Assembly (NCBI GenBank): GCA_021794095.1
Contig: JAJYRN010000002.1
Location: 171,076 to 235,075 of the forward strand
Source of the DNA: Acidobacteriota bacterium
GTDB taxonomy: Bacteria > Acidobacteriota > Holophagae > Holophagales > Holophagaceae
Length of the DNA stretch: 64,000 nucleotides
Direction of reading: 5' to 3'
Of this stretch, positions 9,046 through 15,675 are shown piece after piece. A program made the translations under genes and the position numbers. The notes beneath the pieces are model-generated. The model had not been told where the DNA came from and made no database searches. It worked only from the letters and a program-made list of their open reading frames with translations. Each line of letters begins with the position of its first letter. Position 1 is the first letter of the stretch.

Positions 9046-9117
9046 CGCGAGTCTGTGCCTTTCGGCCCACCTCATACGCCCAAAGCGTTTCGGCTGGGGC
9101 TCCCCACCGGGCACTTA

Positions 9118-9153
9118 AAGGTTGATCCCTTCCACCCCCACCCGCAACCCCCT
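9118..9153 (+). repeat. Leader repeat, copy 2 (upstream of the giant helicase gene)
   Basis: Near copy of the segment at 7216-7252, again starting AAGGTTGATCCCTTCC and ending in a C-rich run before the gene start (16 bp before ATG 9169). It may be a duplicated 5' leader carrying a shared promoter or translation element. Confidence 0.7.
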
Positions 9154-9168
9154 TCTCCAGAGCACCCC

Positions 9169-12100
9169 ATGACCCAGCCCATCACATTCTCCGACCTGGC
9201 CGGCAACGTCCTCGACTGGATCCCGGTGGGATGGGACGCCCTCATCACGCCCAAGCCCCTCACCACCCCCGACCTCCACGCCCGCGCCCAATCGGCCCAG
9301 CCCCCCACCCGCATCCGCAAGGACCAGGCCGTCCCCAGCTACCCCAGGGCCCGCGTCGTCTTCCACGGCATCCCCATCGTCATCGAGAACCCGAAGGGCA
9401 GCGTCCGAAGCGGCATCGGCCAGAACGGAAATCGGTGGCGGACGGTCATGGCCCACGACTACGGGTTCATCGCCCGGACCTTCGGGGCGGACGGAGACGG
9501 GGTGGACGCCTTCATGGGCGATGACCTCAAGAGCGAGGCCGTGTTCGTGATCCATCAGGTGGATCCAGCGACCGGAGAATACGACGAGGACAAGGTGATG
9601 CTGGGCTTCCCCGACGAAGCCTCGGCCACGGCGGCCTACCTCGCCAACTACGAGCGCGGGTGGAAGGGCCTCGGGTCCATCCAGAAAATGAGGGTTGGCG
9701 ACCTCAAGGCATGGCTGCGGGAGGGCCAGGAGGGGCGCCCCATCCAGAAATCCGAACCGGAGCCAGATGGCAGCCGATGGGTCACCGTCCACCATGGGAG
9801 CGGGGAGGGCCAGCCGATCAAGGTCATGCCAGCCAAGGGCCACAAGGGCGTCTGGAGAGTAGTTGGCGGGGCCGGGGGGGCCCTCAACGGTCTCCGCCTA
9901 CACGGGCTCAAGAGCCCGGAGGAATACCAGAAAGAGGCCCGGGAGAAGGCCAAAGAGAAGCGCGCCGCGGAGCGAGAGGCCCTGTCCAAGATGACCCCCG
10001 AGGAACGCGCCCAATACAAAGCCGAGAAGGCCGAGGGGAAAGAGAAGCGCCGCCAGGCGGAGGATGCCTTCGCAGACAAGGTGCTTGGTCCCGAGCAGAA
10101 GGGGCTCCTGGGAGAGGACGGGGAGCCGGAACCAGACGACCCAAAGGCCCAGGCCGAGGCGCGCCGGGAGCGCCTGAAAGCGGCCCATGCGGCCGTGCGG
10201 GAGGCCGAGCGCAAACTGGTGCTCGACGTGGACGCCCGGGTCCAGGCTGGAATTCCGGTCATCGGGGGATATGGCCCCCACGGGCTGGACATTGACGACC
10301 TCGTCTCCGAGGCGGACCCCAAGGGCCCTGGCTACCAGCGGGCCCTGGCCAAGCGGGCCGAGATGGCCGGCCTCAGTGCCGACAAACTGGCGGAGCAGGT
10401 GGCCGACATCAAGGAGCGCCGTGCGGCGGCAGAGGGACGGACCATCCCAGAGCCTTCCGGGCGGGAGGAGGGGGAAGGGAGGACGGAAGAACCAGCCCCC
10501 GAAGGCCAGCAGACCCCCCTGCCGGGCATGGGAGGAGCCGTGCCCAAGGATGACCACCAGGCCACCCAAGCGGCCAATGTGGAGGCCCACAAGGCCAGCA
10601 AGGAGCTGCAGGCCCACAAGGCCGCGGCCGTCCGCGAGGCAGTGAAGGAGGCCGTCCAGAAGAACGAGCGCCTCGCCACGCTCCTCCAAGCTCGCCGAGA
10701 ACTGCGCGAAGCCTACAAGGCCAGCACCCCACAGGCCAAAGAGCGAGTGTTCGAAGAGGGTTATCAGATGCCCATCGAGGAAGTGGCCGAGGCCGCCGCC
10801 CAGGACGTCTACCAGCAGATGCTCACCAAGAACATGGTCGGGTTCCTGCAGGAGGTCGGGGAAGCCTACCCGGAAGGTGAGCCCCTGGACCGGTTCGACC
10901 CCCAGCCGATGGACGGCCTCCATGCCACCCGCGGGGCGGCCGCCTTCGATGCCCTCCACGAGGTCGCCCTGGCGGCCGTGGGCCAGGGAATGATCGAGCG
11001 CGATGTGGTGGAGGCCATAGGCCCGGAGGGCGCCGCCCAGCTGGTTGCCCGTGGCATTCGGCGGGAATTCAGCCCCGACGACCAAGCCGCCATCATTGAG
11101 GCCCTGGAGCATCACCACTTGCAGGAGCAGGAGGAACTCCCGAAGGTGATGGACGAGGCCCAGGCCCTGCGCGCCGAAGCCAACCGGCTGCGGGCGGATC
11201 TCGCGGAGAACCCCCGGGATCTCTCCCTGGCAGTCGAGATGCAGAAGAACCGCCTAGACATCCTGAAGGAAGCCAGGCGCACCCTGGGAGGCACCCTGGG
11301 ACGCATCGAGGCCCGGGCAGCTCTGATCGCCTCGCTGCAGGCGGGGAAGGATCAGGAGAACCTCACTCTCCCCCTCGGGAAGATGACTCCCGAGAAGGCC
11401 GTCCAGACCGCCGCGGCCCTGGGCCTCAAGGAAGGCGACTACAAGATCGACCACGAGGCCGGCGAAGCCGTGATCCACCTCAACGGCCAGGGGCAGGACC
11501 GCCTCGTGGCACCCATCGACACCGCCGCCCTCCACGAGCGCGACCTCGCCCTGGCCATAAAGGGTGGACAGCTGGACCGCCCGGGATACCTTCCCGCCGG
11601 GTTCGCGGATCGCACCGACAGCCGCTATGACCACCCTATCCAGGAAGCCCCCCAGTTCCGCCAGCGCCTCCAGATCCAGGACGACATGGGCCCCGAGCAG
11701 GTGCGGGACGCCCTCATGGATCATGTGGGCAGCCGCCTCGCAGACGGGGAGCGCCCGGCAGACATCCTCAACGACGTCATGTCGGGCACCTTCATGGCGT
11801 CCAGCGTGCCAGAGGGGGCCCTCAAGTCCTATGTGAACGCCCTGTCGGAGGTCTTCCCCCTGCAGGAGCATGTCAAAGACAAGGAGGGGAACCCGATCTA
11901 CCAGAAGGCAGAGGATGGGACCGAGTACCCAAAAATGCGCCTGCGGACCATGGACGAACTGGCAGGCCACTTCGACCAGACGCTGGACCGGTTCCTGGAG
12001 AAGCAGGGCGCAGCCGCGGACACGGCCCTCGCCCGGCAGTGGGTGGATGCCGACAGCCCCGACTTTGCAGAGGCCGTCCACCGGGCACTGGCGGAGGATC

Positions 12101-15100
12101 CCCGAACCACGGCGGCCTTCACCCCCGCCGGCGAACTCAGCGCCGAGCAGCAGGCCCACATCCGCGACTACTTCTACCGGGAGGTGAAGGGAATCGACCC
12201 GGATGCCGCCCCGGCAGGTGTCAAGGAATCCTTGACTACTCCAGTCGGTGATAAAACATCACCGACTGCCCAGCCGCAGACCAAGGAGGACAAGGCCCAG
12301 GCCCGCGCCATGGAGATCGCCGGCCCCGAGCCCGAACAGTGGGAAGTGGACATGTTCGGGGAGCAAACCCACTCCCCGGTCTGGGTGGACTGGAAGTCCC
12401 GCTACGACGCGGCGAAGGAAGCCGTGGAAAACGGCCAGGACGCCGACATGGAGGCCAATGCATCGACCTACGTCGCCCCGAGCGGCCAGAAAGTCACAGC
12501 CGCGGCCGTCGCCACTGCCCCAGAGGACAGCCCGTGGGCGCTCTACGTCCAGGCTATGGGAGGGCTCAAGCAGGCCCAGGCTGCCGTCCAGGACCAGATG
12601 AAGGGGGCCTTCGCAGAGAGGTTCAAGGCCCACCACGAGCGCCTCACAGGGAAGGGCCTGAAGCTGGGCAAGACCGAGCTGGCCCACCGCGACCGGTTCC
12701 TGGGAGCCACCATGGACCCCGAGCGCCTGGCGGCCTTGCGGAAGAACCAGTCCAGCCTCGCCACCAGCCTCCGGAAGCGCGACAGCCGCGGCCGCCTCCT
12801 GGAGGGGGGGGTGGCCGATCAGATGGACGAGGCCCGCCGGAAGCGCGAGGCCGCTCTGCAGGGCCAAAGCGCCCTCTTCGAGAAGGAAGAGGAGCCGGGC
12901 CTCCGCCAGACCCTCGGGCCCACGCTCGAGGCCCAGATCCGGGCCCACATCCCCGGCCTCGCCGCAGCATTCCAGGGCACCCGTCGGGCCGTGGACGTGC
13001 ATGAAGGTGTCCGGATGGACGGTGACCGCGTGGGCCAGCAGCGGGCCATCCAGGCCATCACGAAACTCAAGCGCATCGGGCTCTTCCTGGGAGCCGGGTG
13101 CGTCTACGGCGGGACAGAACTGAGATGCGAGAAACGCGGTATCACACGCTCGTTCTATGACTGGTGGATATCCGGAGAAACGCCTTGGGTCCAGACGATC
13201 CAACCGGATGGGACCACCGGCATCCGCAAATCGTCCCATGTGTTCATCAAGGGGATGGGGAGGATGGTCCGGATAGTCTGCTCAAATGGGACATCCATGG
13301 TCGTCACACCGGGGCATAGGTTCCTCGGTGAGTTTGGATGGATCGCCGCAGGGCTTATTCAACCGGGGACCAGACTGCTCGAATCCGGTGAGCCATCCGA
13401 AACAGAGAATGACCCGCTACTAGATCTCGTCACGCAAGCGTGCCGTCTGGATTCCGTTTGCGCCGGAGAGCGCGAAGGCGTTGCTTCTCCCGCTCTTCAT
13501 CCGTCCACACACGCCGAGGAATGGGGGAATTCTTCCACCGCTCCTTCATCTGCACACGCGCTCTTTCACGCCGCTCATCGGTCCATTCTGGATGGCACTC
13601 TGGACGGCCCCCATTCTCACGCATTCGAGCCAGCCCTTGCGGAGAATGTCTTGGAACGCGGCCTAAAAGTTCTTCTCGAAGATGGTCTGAATTCGCTGCA
13701 TACAGAGACAGATTGTCTGGATGGTTGTTCCCTCGATTTGAATCCAAGTGATGAACAACCTCATCGGGAAGAAGATGGCGCCCCAGTTTCTGCTCCATCA
13801 CAAGGCGGTGCTCACGCACATATCCATTTGAATTTGCATGAGGATGATCCGGACAGTGGACCAGGACATACCCGGATTTATCGACCGTCCTTCCGCCACG
13901 CCAGCATGGATTTTTTGACCCGAAACCTGGCCGTGCAGGACGACGAGGAATTCCGGCCTGTTCAAGCCGAGCCCCAACCGAACCACCAGTCAACCCGAAG
14001 CGCTTCCCAATCTCGGAAGTGCTCAACTCCTCGTCTACATACAAAGCGCGGAGAACATCGACAGGGATCACAACCTTGGGGGGCCTTCCCATACACCACC
14101 GTCCTTTCAGTCGAGGAAGCAGGAGAACACATCATCTTCGATATCTCAGTCCCGGTTGAGCATAACTATACATCAAGTGGCCTGATTAGTCATAATTCGG
14201 GCAAGACGCCCGTCATGCTGGGAGCCCTCACGGAACTCCAGAAGGCCGGCAAGGTGCAGAAGTCCATCCTGGCGGTCCCGTCCATCGTGCAGAAGCAATT
14301 CGGAGCCGAGGCCATCCGGTTCATCGACCCAAACAGTGGGTTCCATGTCCACGCCCAGCCCGGGGAGAGTTTCGAGGAGCGGCTCCGGGCCTACCAGGAT
14401 CCCGACCAGCATGCCGTGGTGATCACCCACCAGGCACTGCGGGACGACACCCTGCGGATCCTCCAGAACCACCTGGGCATGGACCCGCAGCAGACCCACG
14501 AATGGGCCATGAGCGTGCCGAAGGACAAGCTGGCCGCCACCGTGAAGGAAGCCTTCGCCAAGCACGGCATCAACTTCCAGGCTCTCATGGTGGACGAGGC
14601 CCATGGCGCCCTGGACCGGGAAGGGAAGGCCGACAGCACCTTCTCCAGGATCCTGAACGCCCACAGCCGGAACGTCAGCCACATGGTCATGGCCACTGGG
14701 AACCCCATCAAAAATGACACCAGCGAGGCGTGGTCGGACCTCCACCACCTGGATCCCTACCGCTACCCCGAGGAGAGCAAGGACGAATTCATGCGCCGAT
14801 ATGGGACGGACGCAGACCTGTCCCGCCGGAGCCTCGCCCAGCAGCTGACGAGATACTGGGTGAACGCCCGCCTCAAGCTGCCCACCGAGGCCAACCGCCT
14901 GGACGACAAGATCCCCCTCGAGGCCCACCAGCATGCGGCGATCGAGAAAGTGGAAAGGGCCGCAGGCAAGCTCCGCACCGGAGCGGGAGGGGACGAGCGC
15001 ATGAAGTGGGCCAAGGAACTGGCCCCCGAAGCCTTCGAAGGGCACCCCGAAAGCGACCACGAGGCCATCGCCAAGATGGTGGCCCGCAGCGTCGGAACCT

Positions 15101-15675
15101 TCCGAGAGGCGGCCATGAACCGGGCGATCAACCTGGACCCCGCCGGCGGCAAGATGAAACGAGCCGTGGGCATCGCCAAGGATGCGGCCGCAGAGGGAAA
15201 GCTCGTCGTGATGTTCGCCAGGAACCTCGCCGCGGTGGAGGCCCTCCACAAGAACCTCGAGGCCGCGGGCCTGAAGGTGGCCAGCCTGACCGGCAAAGAC
15301 TCCTCCAAGAGCAAAGGTGAGAAGCTGGCTGCCTACCAGCGGGGCGAGCACCAAGTCATCGTCATGAGCGATGCTGGAAGCACCGGGGCCAACCTGCAGA
15401 TGGGCAAGGTCATGGTCCACATTGACCAACCCATGACGGCCATGACCATGCAGCAGCGGGACGCCCGGATCCACCGCCTGGGCCAGAAGGACAACGTGGA
15501 GATCCACCACCTGCTGGCCGACCACGAATGGGAACGCGCCAATGTGGAGCGGGTGAAGCGGAAGGACAGCCTCGGAGCCGTGTACCAGGCCCCGGAGGGA
15601 TACCTGGACGATTCGGGCATCGCCGGCACCCTCCGCGAGATCCGGGCCCGGCGGAATCAGGAGCGTGTGGCATGA
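9169..15675 (+). CDS. Giant polyvalent protein: pyrophosphatase-like domain plus SNF2-type helicase, with intein
   Basis: 2168-aa precursor from ATG 9169 (an in-frame ATG at 9055 is less likely). Residues ~90-185 contain AHDYGFIARTFGADGDGVDA, then DEDKVMLGF, matching the inorganic-pyrophosphatase-like domain of phage polyvalent proteins. A tag-like PIQKSEPEPDGSRWVTVHH follows, then a long charged, coiled-coil-rich middle. A helicase begins near residue 1300: Walker A GAG/SGKT (split by an intein, residues 1311-1676), Walker B VDEAH (~1807), a GSTGANLQMGK motif and a QQRDARIHRLGQ motif VI typical of SNF2/RapA proteins. Splicing would leave ~1802 aa. Such proteins are thought to enter the cell with phage DNA. 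DNA remodelling or anti-defence is plausible but inferred. Confidence 0.85.
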   Translation: MTQPITFSDLAGNVLDWIPVGWDALITPKPLTTPDLHARAQSAQPPTRIRKDQAVPSYPRARVVFHGIPIVIENPKGSVRSGIGQNGNRWRTVMAHDYGFIARTFGADGDGVDAFMGDDLKSEAVFVIHQVDPATGEYDEDKVMLGFPDEASATAAYLANYERGWKGLGSIQKMRVGDLKAWLREGQEGRPIQKSEPEPDGSRWVTVHHGSGEGQPIKVMPAKGHKGVWRVVGGAGGALNGLRLHGLKSPEEYQKEAREKAKEKRAAEREALSKMTPEERAQYKAEKAEGKEKRRQAEDAFADKVLGPEQKGLLGEDGEPEPDDPKAQAEARRERLKAAHAAVREAERKLVLDVDARVQAGIPVIGGYGPHGLDIDDLVSEADPKGPGYQRALAKRAEMAGLSADKLAEQVADIKERRAAAEGRTIPEPSGREEGEGRTEEPAPEGQQTPLPGMGGAVPKDDHQATQAANVEAHKASKELQAHKAAAVREAVKEAVQKNERLATLLQARRELREAYKASTPQAKERVFEEGYQMPIEEVAEAAAQDVYQQMLTKNMVGFLQEVGEAYPEGEPLDRFDPQPMDGLHATRGAAAFDALHEVALAAVGQGMIERDVVEAIGPEGAAQLVARGIRREFSPDDQAAIIEALEHHHLQEQEELPKVMDEAQALRAEANRLRADLAENPRDLSLAVEMQKNRLDILKEARRTLGGTLGRIEARAALIASLQAGKDQENLTLPLGKMTPEKAVQTAAALGLKEGDYKIDHEAGEAVIHLNGQGQDRLVAPIDTAALHERDLALAIKGGQLDRPGYLPAGFADRTDSRYDHPIQEAPQFRQRLQIQDDMGPEQVRDALMDHVGSRLADGERPADILNDVMSGTFMASSVPEGALKSYVNALSEVFPLQEHVKDKEGNPIYQKAEDGTEYPKMRLRTMDELAGHFDQTLDRFLEKQGAAADTALARQWVDADSPDFAEAVHRALAEDPRTTAAFTPAGELSAEQQAHIRDYFYREVKGIDPDAAPAGVKESLTTPVGDKTSPTAQPQTKEDKAQARAMEIAGPEPEQWEVDMFGEQTHSPVWVDWKSRYDAAKEAVENGQDADMEANASTYVAPSGQKVTAAAVATAPEDSPWALYVQAMGGLKQAQAAVQDQMKGAFAERFKAHHERLTGKGLKLGKTELAHRDRFLGATMDPERLAALRKNQSSLATSLRKRDSRGRLLEGGVADQMDEARRKREAALQGQSALFEKEEEPGLRQTLGPTLEAQIRAHIPGLAAAFQGTRRAVDVHEGVRMDGDRVGQQRAIQAITKLKRIGLFLGAGCVYGGTELRCEKRGITRSFYDWWISGETPWVQTIQPDGTTGIRKSSHVFIKGMGRMVRIVCSNGTSMVVTPGHRFLGEFGWIAAGLIQPGTRLLESGEPSETENDPLLDLVTQACRLDSVCAGEREGVASPALHPSTHAEEWGNSSTAPSSAHALFHAAHRSILDGTLDGPHSHAFEPALAENVLERGLKVLLEDGLNSLHTETDCLDGCSLDLNPSDEQPHREEDGAPVSAPSQGGAHAHIHLNLHEDDPDSGPGHTRIYRPSFRHASMDFLTRNLAVQDDEEFRPVQAEPQPNHQSTRSASQSRKCSTPRLHTKRGEHRQGSQPWGAFPYTTVLSVEEAGEHIIFDISVPVEHNYTSSGLISHNSGKTPVMLGALTELQKAGKVQKSILAVPSIVQKQFGAEAIRFIDPNSGFHVHAQPGESFEERLRAYQDPDQHAVVITHQALRDDTLRILQNHLGMDPQQTHEWAMSVPKDKLAATVKEAFAKHGINFQALMVDEAHGALDREGKADSTFSRILNAHSRNVSHMVMATGNPIKNDTSEAWSDLHHLDPYRYPEESKDEFMRRYGTDADLSRRSLAQQLTRYWVNARLKLPTEANRLDDKIPLEAHQHAAIEKVERAAGKLRTGAGGDERMKWAKELAPEAFEGHPESDHEAIAKMVARSVGTFREAAMNRAINLDPAGGKMKRAVGIAKDAAAEGKLVVMFARNLAAVEALHKNLEAAGLKVASLTGKDSSKSKGEKLAAYQRGEHQVIVMSDAGSTGANLQMGKVMVHIDQPMTAMTMQQRDARIHRLGQKDNVEIHHLLADHEWERANVERVKRKDSLGAVYQAPEGYLDDSGIAGTLREIRARRNQERVA
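13099..14196 (+). other. Intein inside the helicase Walker A motif
   Basis: In-frame insertion of 366 codons. It begins with Cys (CVYGGTELRCEKRG), has a block-B-like segment (NGTSMVVTPGHRFLG) and ends with a block F/G segment (HIIFDISVPVEHNYTSSG, then LISHN) followed by extein Ser. Removing it joins GAG to SGKT, restoring a perfect P-loop GAGSGKT. The recognisable splicing parts are about 107 aa at the N-terminus and 34 aa at the C-terminus, the size of a mini-intein. The middle ~220 codons are simply the reverse reading of an antisense HNH gene. Confidence 0.92.
13430..14092 (-). CDS. HNH homing endonuclease encoded antisense within the intein
   Basis: 220 aa on the strand opposite the intein, fully inside it. 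ATG 14092 has AAAGGA upstream. Residues ~10-50 form an HTH (LSTSEIGKRFGLTGGSVGAR). The catalytic region is YVREHRLVMEQKLGRHLLPD, then EVVHHLDSNRGNNHPDNLSL, a complete HNH_3-type motif with the HH pair and Asn residues. The C-terminus is basic and helical. It occupies the place where inteins normally carry their endonuclease domain, but reversed and as a separate gene, while the sense frame stays open. It presumably cuts intein-free alleles of the helicase gene to spread the intein. Confidence 0.88.
   Translation of the reverse strand: MGRPPKVVIPVDVLRALYVDEELSTSEIGKRFGLTGGSVGARLEQAGIPRRPARPGFGSKNPCWRGGRTVDKSGYVLVHCPDHPHANSNGYVREHRLVMEQKLGRHLLPDEVVHHLDSNRGNNHPDNLSLYAANSDHLREELLGRVPRHSPQGLARMRENGGRPECHPEWTDERRERARVQMKERWKNSPIPRRVWTDEEREKQRLRALRRKRNPDGTLA

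Follow-up and report, generated by a model that had tools for sequence, protein, structure and literature searches.

Can the same base pairs carry a protein-splicing element on one strand and, on the other, the endonuclease gene that would make it mobile? A helicase gene in the stretch of DNA analysed here (the window, 64,000 nucleotides of a 3.0 Mb acidobacterial genome) raises this question. The gene sits in a prophage, with portal, terminase, DnaB helicase and RecE-like genes at 29-49 kb of the window. Its product contains inorganic-pyrophosphatase-like and SNF2-type helicase domains (PF18823, 1e-46; Helicase_C, 8e-10; SNF2, 8e-5) and matches the phrog_62 DNA helicase (E 7e-53). The open reading frame continues across the whole of an insert that carries a second gene in reverse. 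The features are listed below, with carets marking intein junctions here and throughout.

9055-15675, plus strand: host gene (extein), an open reading frame for a giant prophage protein of 2206 residues, its Walker A motif broken by the intein.
13090-13098, plus strand: first half of the Walker A motif, GAG, identified from the sequence and an uninterrupted relative.
13099-14196, plus strand: intein of 366 residues, Cys1 to Asn366, supported by Pfam, a PDB sequence match, AlphaFold and Foldseek, with boundaries taken from the empty allele.
13099-13398, plus strand: N-terminal splicing domain, residues 1-100, with Cys1 and the block-B His73 (13315-13317); mean pLDDT 84-98 per ten residues.
13399-14088, plus strand: intein linker in sense, residues 101-330, open across the antisense gene and predicted disordered (block-mean pLDDT about 38-61).
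13430-14092, minus strand: complete gene for a putative HTH-HNH homing endonuclease of 220 aa, with its own ATG; supported by HNH_3, phrog_10730 and AlphaFold.
14089-14196, plus strand: C-terminal splicing domain, residues 331-366, ending HN^S; pLDDT 96-98.
14102-14107, minus strand: Shine-Dalgarno-like AAAGGA upstream of the HNH start codon; anti-SD duplex of -9.1 kcal/mol.
14165-14193, minus strand: candidate sigma70-like promoter ATGACT-17-TATAGT within the intein C-terminal coding sequence, the best site in the region.
14197-14208, plus strand: second half of the Walker A motif, SGKT, identified in the same way as the first.

The insert has the anatomy of an intein. Splicing blocks A/B and F/G are present (Cys1, the block-B histidine, the terminal His-Asn and a serine at +1), and removal of the insert restores a conserved extein motif, GAGSGKT, in frame. 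An intein-free helicase homologue from another genus of the family (genome G055, locus L031) reads GAGSGKT at this site, which confirms the boundaries of the 366-residue insert. The match to Pfam Intein_splicing (E 1.8e-6) falls under the curated cut-off; a sequence match to the Mtu RecA intein reaches E 1e-4. An AlphaFold model built with an alignment of 42 inteins (A4), which proved too divergent for scanning substitution patterns, has very high confidence (pLDDT mostly >90) over residues 1-100 and 331-366 and shows residues 101-330 as disordered. The top Foldseek matches of this model are all inteins, the nearest solved structures being mini-inteins, with the RecA mini-intein 5i0a at E 6e-9, and C1, H73 and N366 are invariant among the 42 aligned sequences. 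By itself the Pfam score is weak. The identification becomes secure, as regards anatomy and fold, once profiles, structure and family are considered jointly, and splicing itself is inferred from them. Profile searches with the sense linker returned no family match, to an endonuclease or otherwise. A self-splicing group I or group II intron at the insert was also considered and rejected, as an Rfam scan of the window returned tRNAs only.

The protein read from the opposite strand matches HNH_3 (E 2.8e-8) and phrog_10730 (E 4e-28). Its AlphaFold model (mean pLDDT 87.6) has a three-helix N-terminal domain and an HNH core, for which I-HmuI is the nearest solved HNH fold, a weak match (Foldseek probability 0.93, E-value not significant). 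The residues of the HNH motif are invariant across the antisense family described below. We infer that this product is a homing endonuclease; cleavage of empty as opposed to occupied sites is likewise an inference, resting on population evidence only. In the window, the third codon positions of the HNH gene lie opposite the second codon positions of the intein.

Scans with a single protein as query, either the window intein or the helicase, found no family for this arrangement; HNH-based searches revealed a large one in phages, which overturned the idea that the window is unique. The family was collected by HNH-based and intein-only scans of IMG/VR, to which were added eight Pectobacterium-group phages and Pseudoalteromonas phage PHS3, the best phage matches to the window HNH protein. 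In phages Ymer and PHS3, the HNH gene is antisense within the large-terminase ORF, whose Walker A motif the intein interrupts, and it covers nearly the whole intein, N-terminal splicing blocks included, so that just 13 codons at the N-terminus lie outside it. Scanning viral contigs with the window, Ymer and PHS3 HNH proteins, plus a PHS3 scan, yielded 86 loci; 84 of them have the HNH gene running antisense within a long ORF, always in the same register, and dereplication left 70. The exteins of 57 scanned members are mostly large terminases (Terminase_6N, Terminase_3), alongside helicases and a clamp loader. Among these 57, Intein_splicing was matched in 47, Cys1 occupies the aligned position in 54, and every one ends in asparagine. 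The inteins are inserted within or at the P-loop, GxxR^SGKT and NQxGK^T being the typical sites. The total came to about 104 distinct HNH cores in antisense, and uninterrupted terminases are present in >870 phage records. Other intein loci retrieved from the window's own phylum showed no antisense relative.

The scan based on intein sequence alone recovered 69 viral inteins, 53 of which carry the antisense HNH gene, and none of the 69 has the same HNH family in the sense frame. The others include seven mini-inteins of 134-179 residues without HNH and a few conventional inteins with in-frame endonucleases. Five mini-inteins (L185, L188, L194, L213 and L225) belong to the same family, several of them in P-loops, and lack the linker gene; within a homing cycle, they look like a stage that precedes or follows the endonuclease gene. 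Public annotation of the family is uneven. In PHS3 (L065, KX912252) the antisense HNH gene was called, at the cost of a truncated terminase, and in Ymer (L064, OP748252) the intein-bearing terminase is a hypothetical protein and the HNH gene is unannotated.

A reading of the window without splicing would hold that the sense frame is open by chance and that the host gene is broken or restarted. In its favour, splicing lacks experimental evidence and the window's Pfam score is under the curated cut-off. We evaluated the open frame by permuting the synonymous codons of the HNH gene, keeping its protein and its own codons, and counting stops in the intein frame. The window has 0 stops where 4.4-4.5 are expected, and none occurred in only 0.2-0.3% of permutations (P about 0.0025); the two remaining antisense frames of the same gene contain 5 and 4 stops. 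Across 73 family members there are 0 intein-frame stops against 430 expected, the lowest of 400 permuted totals being 387, and a second set, consisting partly of the same members, has 0 against 183. Free-standing HNH controls show no such depletion (77 stops against 86 expected; further controls, 27 against 29). The permutations and these controls rule out a chance antisense ORF. The catalytic intein residues are also invariant, the splicing-domain fold is confident, and in terminases the insert lies in an essential ATP-binding motif, leaving the no-splicing reading very unlikely.

Several claims of a preliminary description, made from the sequence alone, are borne out by these results. It had proposed a helicase intein at 13099-14196 whose removal restores GAGSGKT, which the ORF, the empty allele, the profiles and the structure support; a complete antisense HTH-HNH gene at 13430-14092 with its own ATG and ribosome site, which HNH_3, phrog_10730 and the AAAGGA motif support; a sense frame open for ~220 codons over that gene; and HNH third positions opposite intein second positions. 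Its splicing blocks of about 107 and 34 residues are refined by the structure model to residues 1-100 and 331-366.

Substitution patterns in relatives show that selection acts on both proteins. Linker differences in the PHS3 group amount to 0.26, 0.18 and 0.46 per site at HNH positions 1, 2 and 3, and this excess at HNH third positions indicates that the HNH protein is conserved. In the C-terminal part, which only the intein occupies, the sense third position is instead the most variable (0.42). Where the HNH C-terminus overlies the splicing N-domain, all three positions vary little (0.12-0.20), as would be the case were both proteins important. The trends are the same in the Pectobacterium group, where changes are fewer. 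In the window, the sense linker is predicted disordered and appears to be mainly kept open, so the two frames constrain each other unequally; strong mutual constraint is found in relatives whose HNH gene extends over the N-terminal splicing domain. The preliminary claim that both frames constrain each other is corrected in this respect.

Only one close relative of the window intein was available, in a second species of the same genus (G027). The two inteins differ at three positions, one altering the HNH protein and one the sense linker, and because there is no other close relative, the case for selection in the window's own copy rests on stop avoidance and inference from the family. Across the family, the HNH-overlapping part of the sense linker (13433-14092 in the window) is slightly more hydrophilic than in synonymous permutations (60/71 members, p 7e-8), possibly reflecting weak selection for a soluble linker; the window intein itself does not show this lower hydropathy against its permutations.

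Signals for independent expression of the HNH gene are found throughout the family. Pairing with the anti-SD sequence before HNH starts has a family median of -6.4 kcal/mol, compared with -3.4 for out-of-frame starts (p 2e-14). In the intein C-terminal region, the sigma70-like score of the HNH strand averages 9.6 bits, against 5.7 in extein windows (p 4e-14), and this signal is strand-specific family-wide, the HNH strand scoring above the other (p 9e-11). One member (L104) has a perfect TTGACA-18-TATAAT upstream of its antisense HNH gene. In most members the promoter site is closer to the HNH start than it is in the window. Promoters inside the intein C-terminal domain are thus indicated by consensus signals only; no transcripts were measured, and antisense expression is inferred.

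Could the sense linker be the degenerate remains of an in-frame endonuclease, with an antisense HNH frame that is dead or fortuitous? In-frame endonucleases are common in inteins, including an HNH one in the same host genus (L053), and the HNH frame of the G027 copy carries one amino-acid change. Against this, the linker has no sense family match and is predicted disordered, the HNH frame has strong matches to HNH families and an intact motif, linker substitutions fall at HNH third positions, and expression signals lie upstream of the antisense start. Together these observations all but exclude the degenerate-linker explanation.

The preferred reading, which we consider very likely as a whole, is a two-strand splicing and homing element, with splicing, antisense expression, cleavage and homing each inferred. 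In this model, translation of the helicase would run straight on across the intein, whose disordered linker is the HNH gene read in antisense, and the splicing domain would excise itself and rejoin GAG to SGKT, as inferred from anatomy and fold. RNA polymerase would read the opposite strand from a promoter in the intein C-terminal domain, and the HTH-HNH protein would be made from its own ribosome site; here the signals are shown and expression is inferred. The HNH protein would then cut or nick intein-free P-loop codons, and repair would copy the intein in. Selection would keep both frames readable, HNH wobble positions absorbing most linker change, as is shown in relatives. A likely advantage, also inferred, is that endonuclease production would be uncoupled from the host protein and from splicing.

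Comparison of the window with G027 bears on mobility. The inteins are 99.73% identical (3/1098 differences) and the flanks 96.7% (92/2803 over 2.8 kb; Fisher p 2e-10), and this higher identity of the intein between two host species suggests its recent spread. Recombination or double coding could possibly explain the low intein divergence as well. At the 3' end of the helicase gene (15150-15675), the two copies align poorly, probably through an indel or local replacement.

A third alternative holds that a free-standing HNH gene inserted antisense into a mini-intein as a separate parasite, for which the intein is a refuge and is not specifically moved by the HNH protein. Related HNH genes do occur free-standing, same-family mini-inteins without HNH exist, and the gene forms a cassette complete with its own promoter and ribosome site. 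Against it stand the about 104 distinct members with very different exteins and one register in every member examined, the recurrence of P-loop insertion sites, and the PHS3 relatives, in which the HNH C-terminus overlaps the splicing domain and both are constrained. As an alternative to the two-strand element, the parasite scenario is unlikely and is better read as the origin of that composite element: a phage HNH gene probably entered a P-loop mini-intein, in antisense, at the place where an endonuclease usually sits. The uniformity of the register speaks for a small number of origins. The HNH tree leaves a single origin unproven, with weak support within the antisense group, three label changes and two free-standing rows inside it.

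How does this arrangement compare with known elements? Canonical mobile inteins, such as LAGLIDADG inteins and the in-frame HNH intein of the cyanophage CL131 dCTP deaminase (PMC6293099), share the splicing domain, insertion in a conserved motif and an endonuclease between N and C blocks. The window intein meets their criterion of a HINT-fold splicing domain (AlphaFold and Foldseek) and does not meet that of an endonuclease in the intein reading frame: its endonuclease is an independent opposite-strand gene with its own start and ribosome site, outside the spliced polypeptide, and disorder is predicted for its sense linker. Mycobacteriophage terminase inteins (PMC5050341) similarly sit in the ATPase domain of large terminases; the word "antisense" is absent from the main text of that paper. 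In fractured genes (Dassa 2009, cited in PMC6892783, which describes split inteins with a separate HNH gene; phage MIJ3 PolB), a separate endonuclease gene likewise lies between the N and C blocks of the intein. The host gene of such systems is two ORFs, whereas the window has one continuous ORF with both strands coding and so fails the split-intein criterion.

Myxomycete nuclear group I introns with antisense homing endonuclease genes (PMC9548176) resemble the window in having the gene opposite the strand of the host element. Because such an intron is removed as RNA, its host strand need not stay open as protein, whereas the window intein needs protein coding on both strands. The antisense protein meets the criterion of HNH motif and fold (profiles, motif and model), as do I-HmuI and PHROG HNH families 10730, 20891 and 7545, with an N-terminal HTH in this antisense family; I-HmuI differs in being intron-encoded, and the more distant HNH relatives checked are free-standing genes. 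The nearest known analogues are therefore antisense endonuclease genes in group I introns and the "fractured" split-intein genes.

The preliminary description knew of no antisense nested endonuclease, and we found no precedent for an intein with an antisense endonuclease gene in the literature searched. That search was partial, most subscription journals and bioRxiv lying outside it, and a prior description is possible; the window, in turn, is one case within a large phage family. The preliminary description had also named two findings that would refute it. The first, homologous inteins with an in-frame endonuclease in the same region, was not met (0/69 sense, 53/69 antisense). The second, an antisense frame neither conserved as protein nor expressed, was not met either, given HNH third positions that are the most variable in the linker, an invariant motif, and translation and promoter signals from which expression is inferred.

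Homing-cycle models place the endonuclease in the spliced protein or between split halves, and separation onto two strands alters the links between endonuclease expression, endonuclease loss and persistence of the intein. A bolder reading, which we regard as likely, is that these elements form a widespread, unrecognised class of phage mobile element, with splicing and homing on opposite strands of the same DNA, an endonuclease made from its own promoter inside the intein, independently of host-gene expression, and, in some members, selection on splicing domain and endonuclease alike from the same base pairs. With this family, about a hundred natural examples of double coding by two proteins in antisense become available, and their selective signature is measurable. 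Annotation errors come to light as well: phage terminases are truncated or labelled "hypothetical" wherever the HNH gene or the intein was picked. For protein engineering, the family offers compact inteins made of two ordered blocks and a disordered linker.

Further loci were observed beside the family. A close free-standing HNH relative (L072, 1779-2408) lies on the opposite strand adjoining a helicase gene with an intact GAGKT. In the host genus of the window, a thyX-like gene (L053, genome G009) carries an intein with an in-frame HTH-HNH, the conventional arrangement. UvrD/Rep-type helicase genes in four genomes (L052, L054, L055 and L057, from G055, G022, G028 and G008) share a common intein site, DEDQ^C...HN^SIYGWRGAD, which is occupied in only some species of the family searched.
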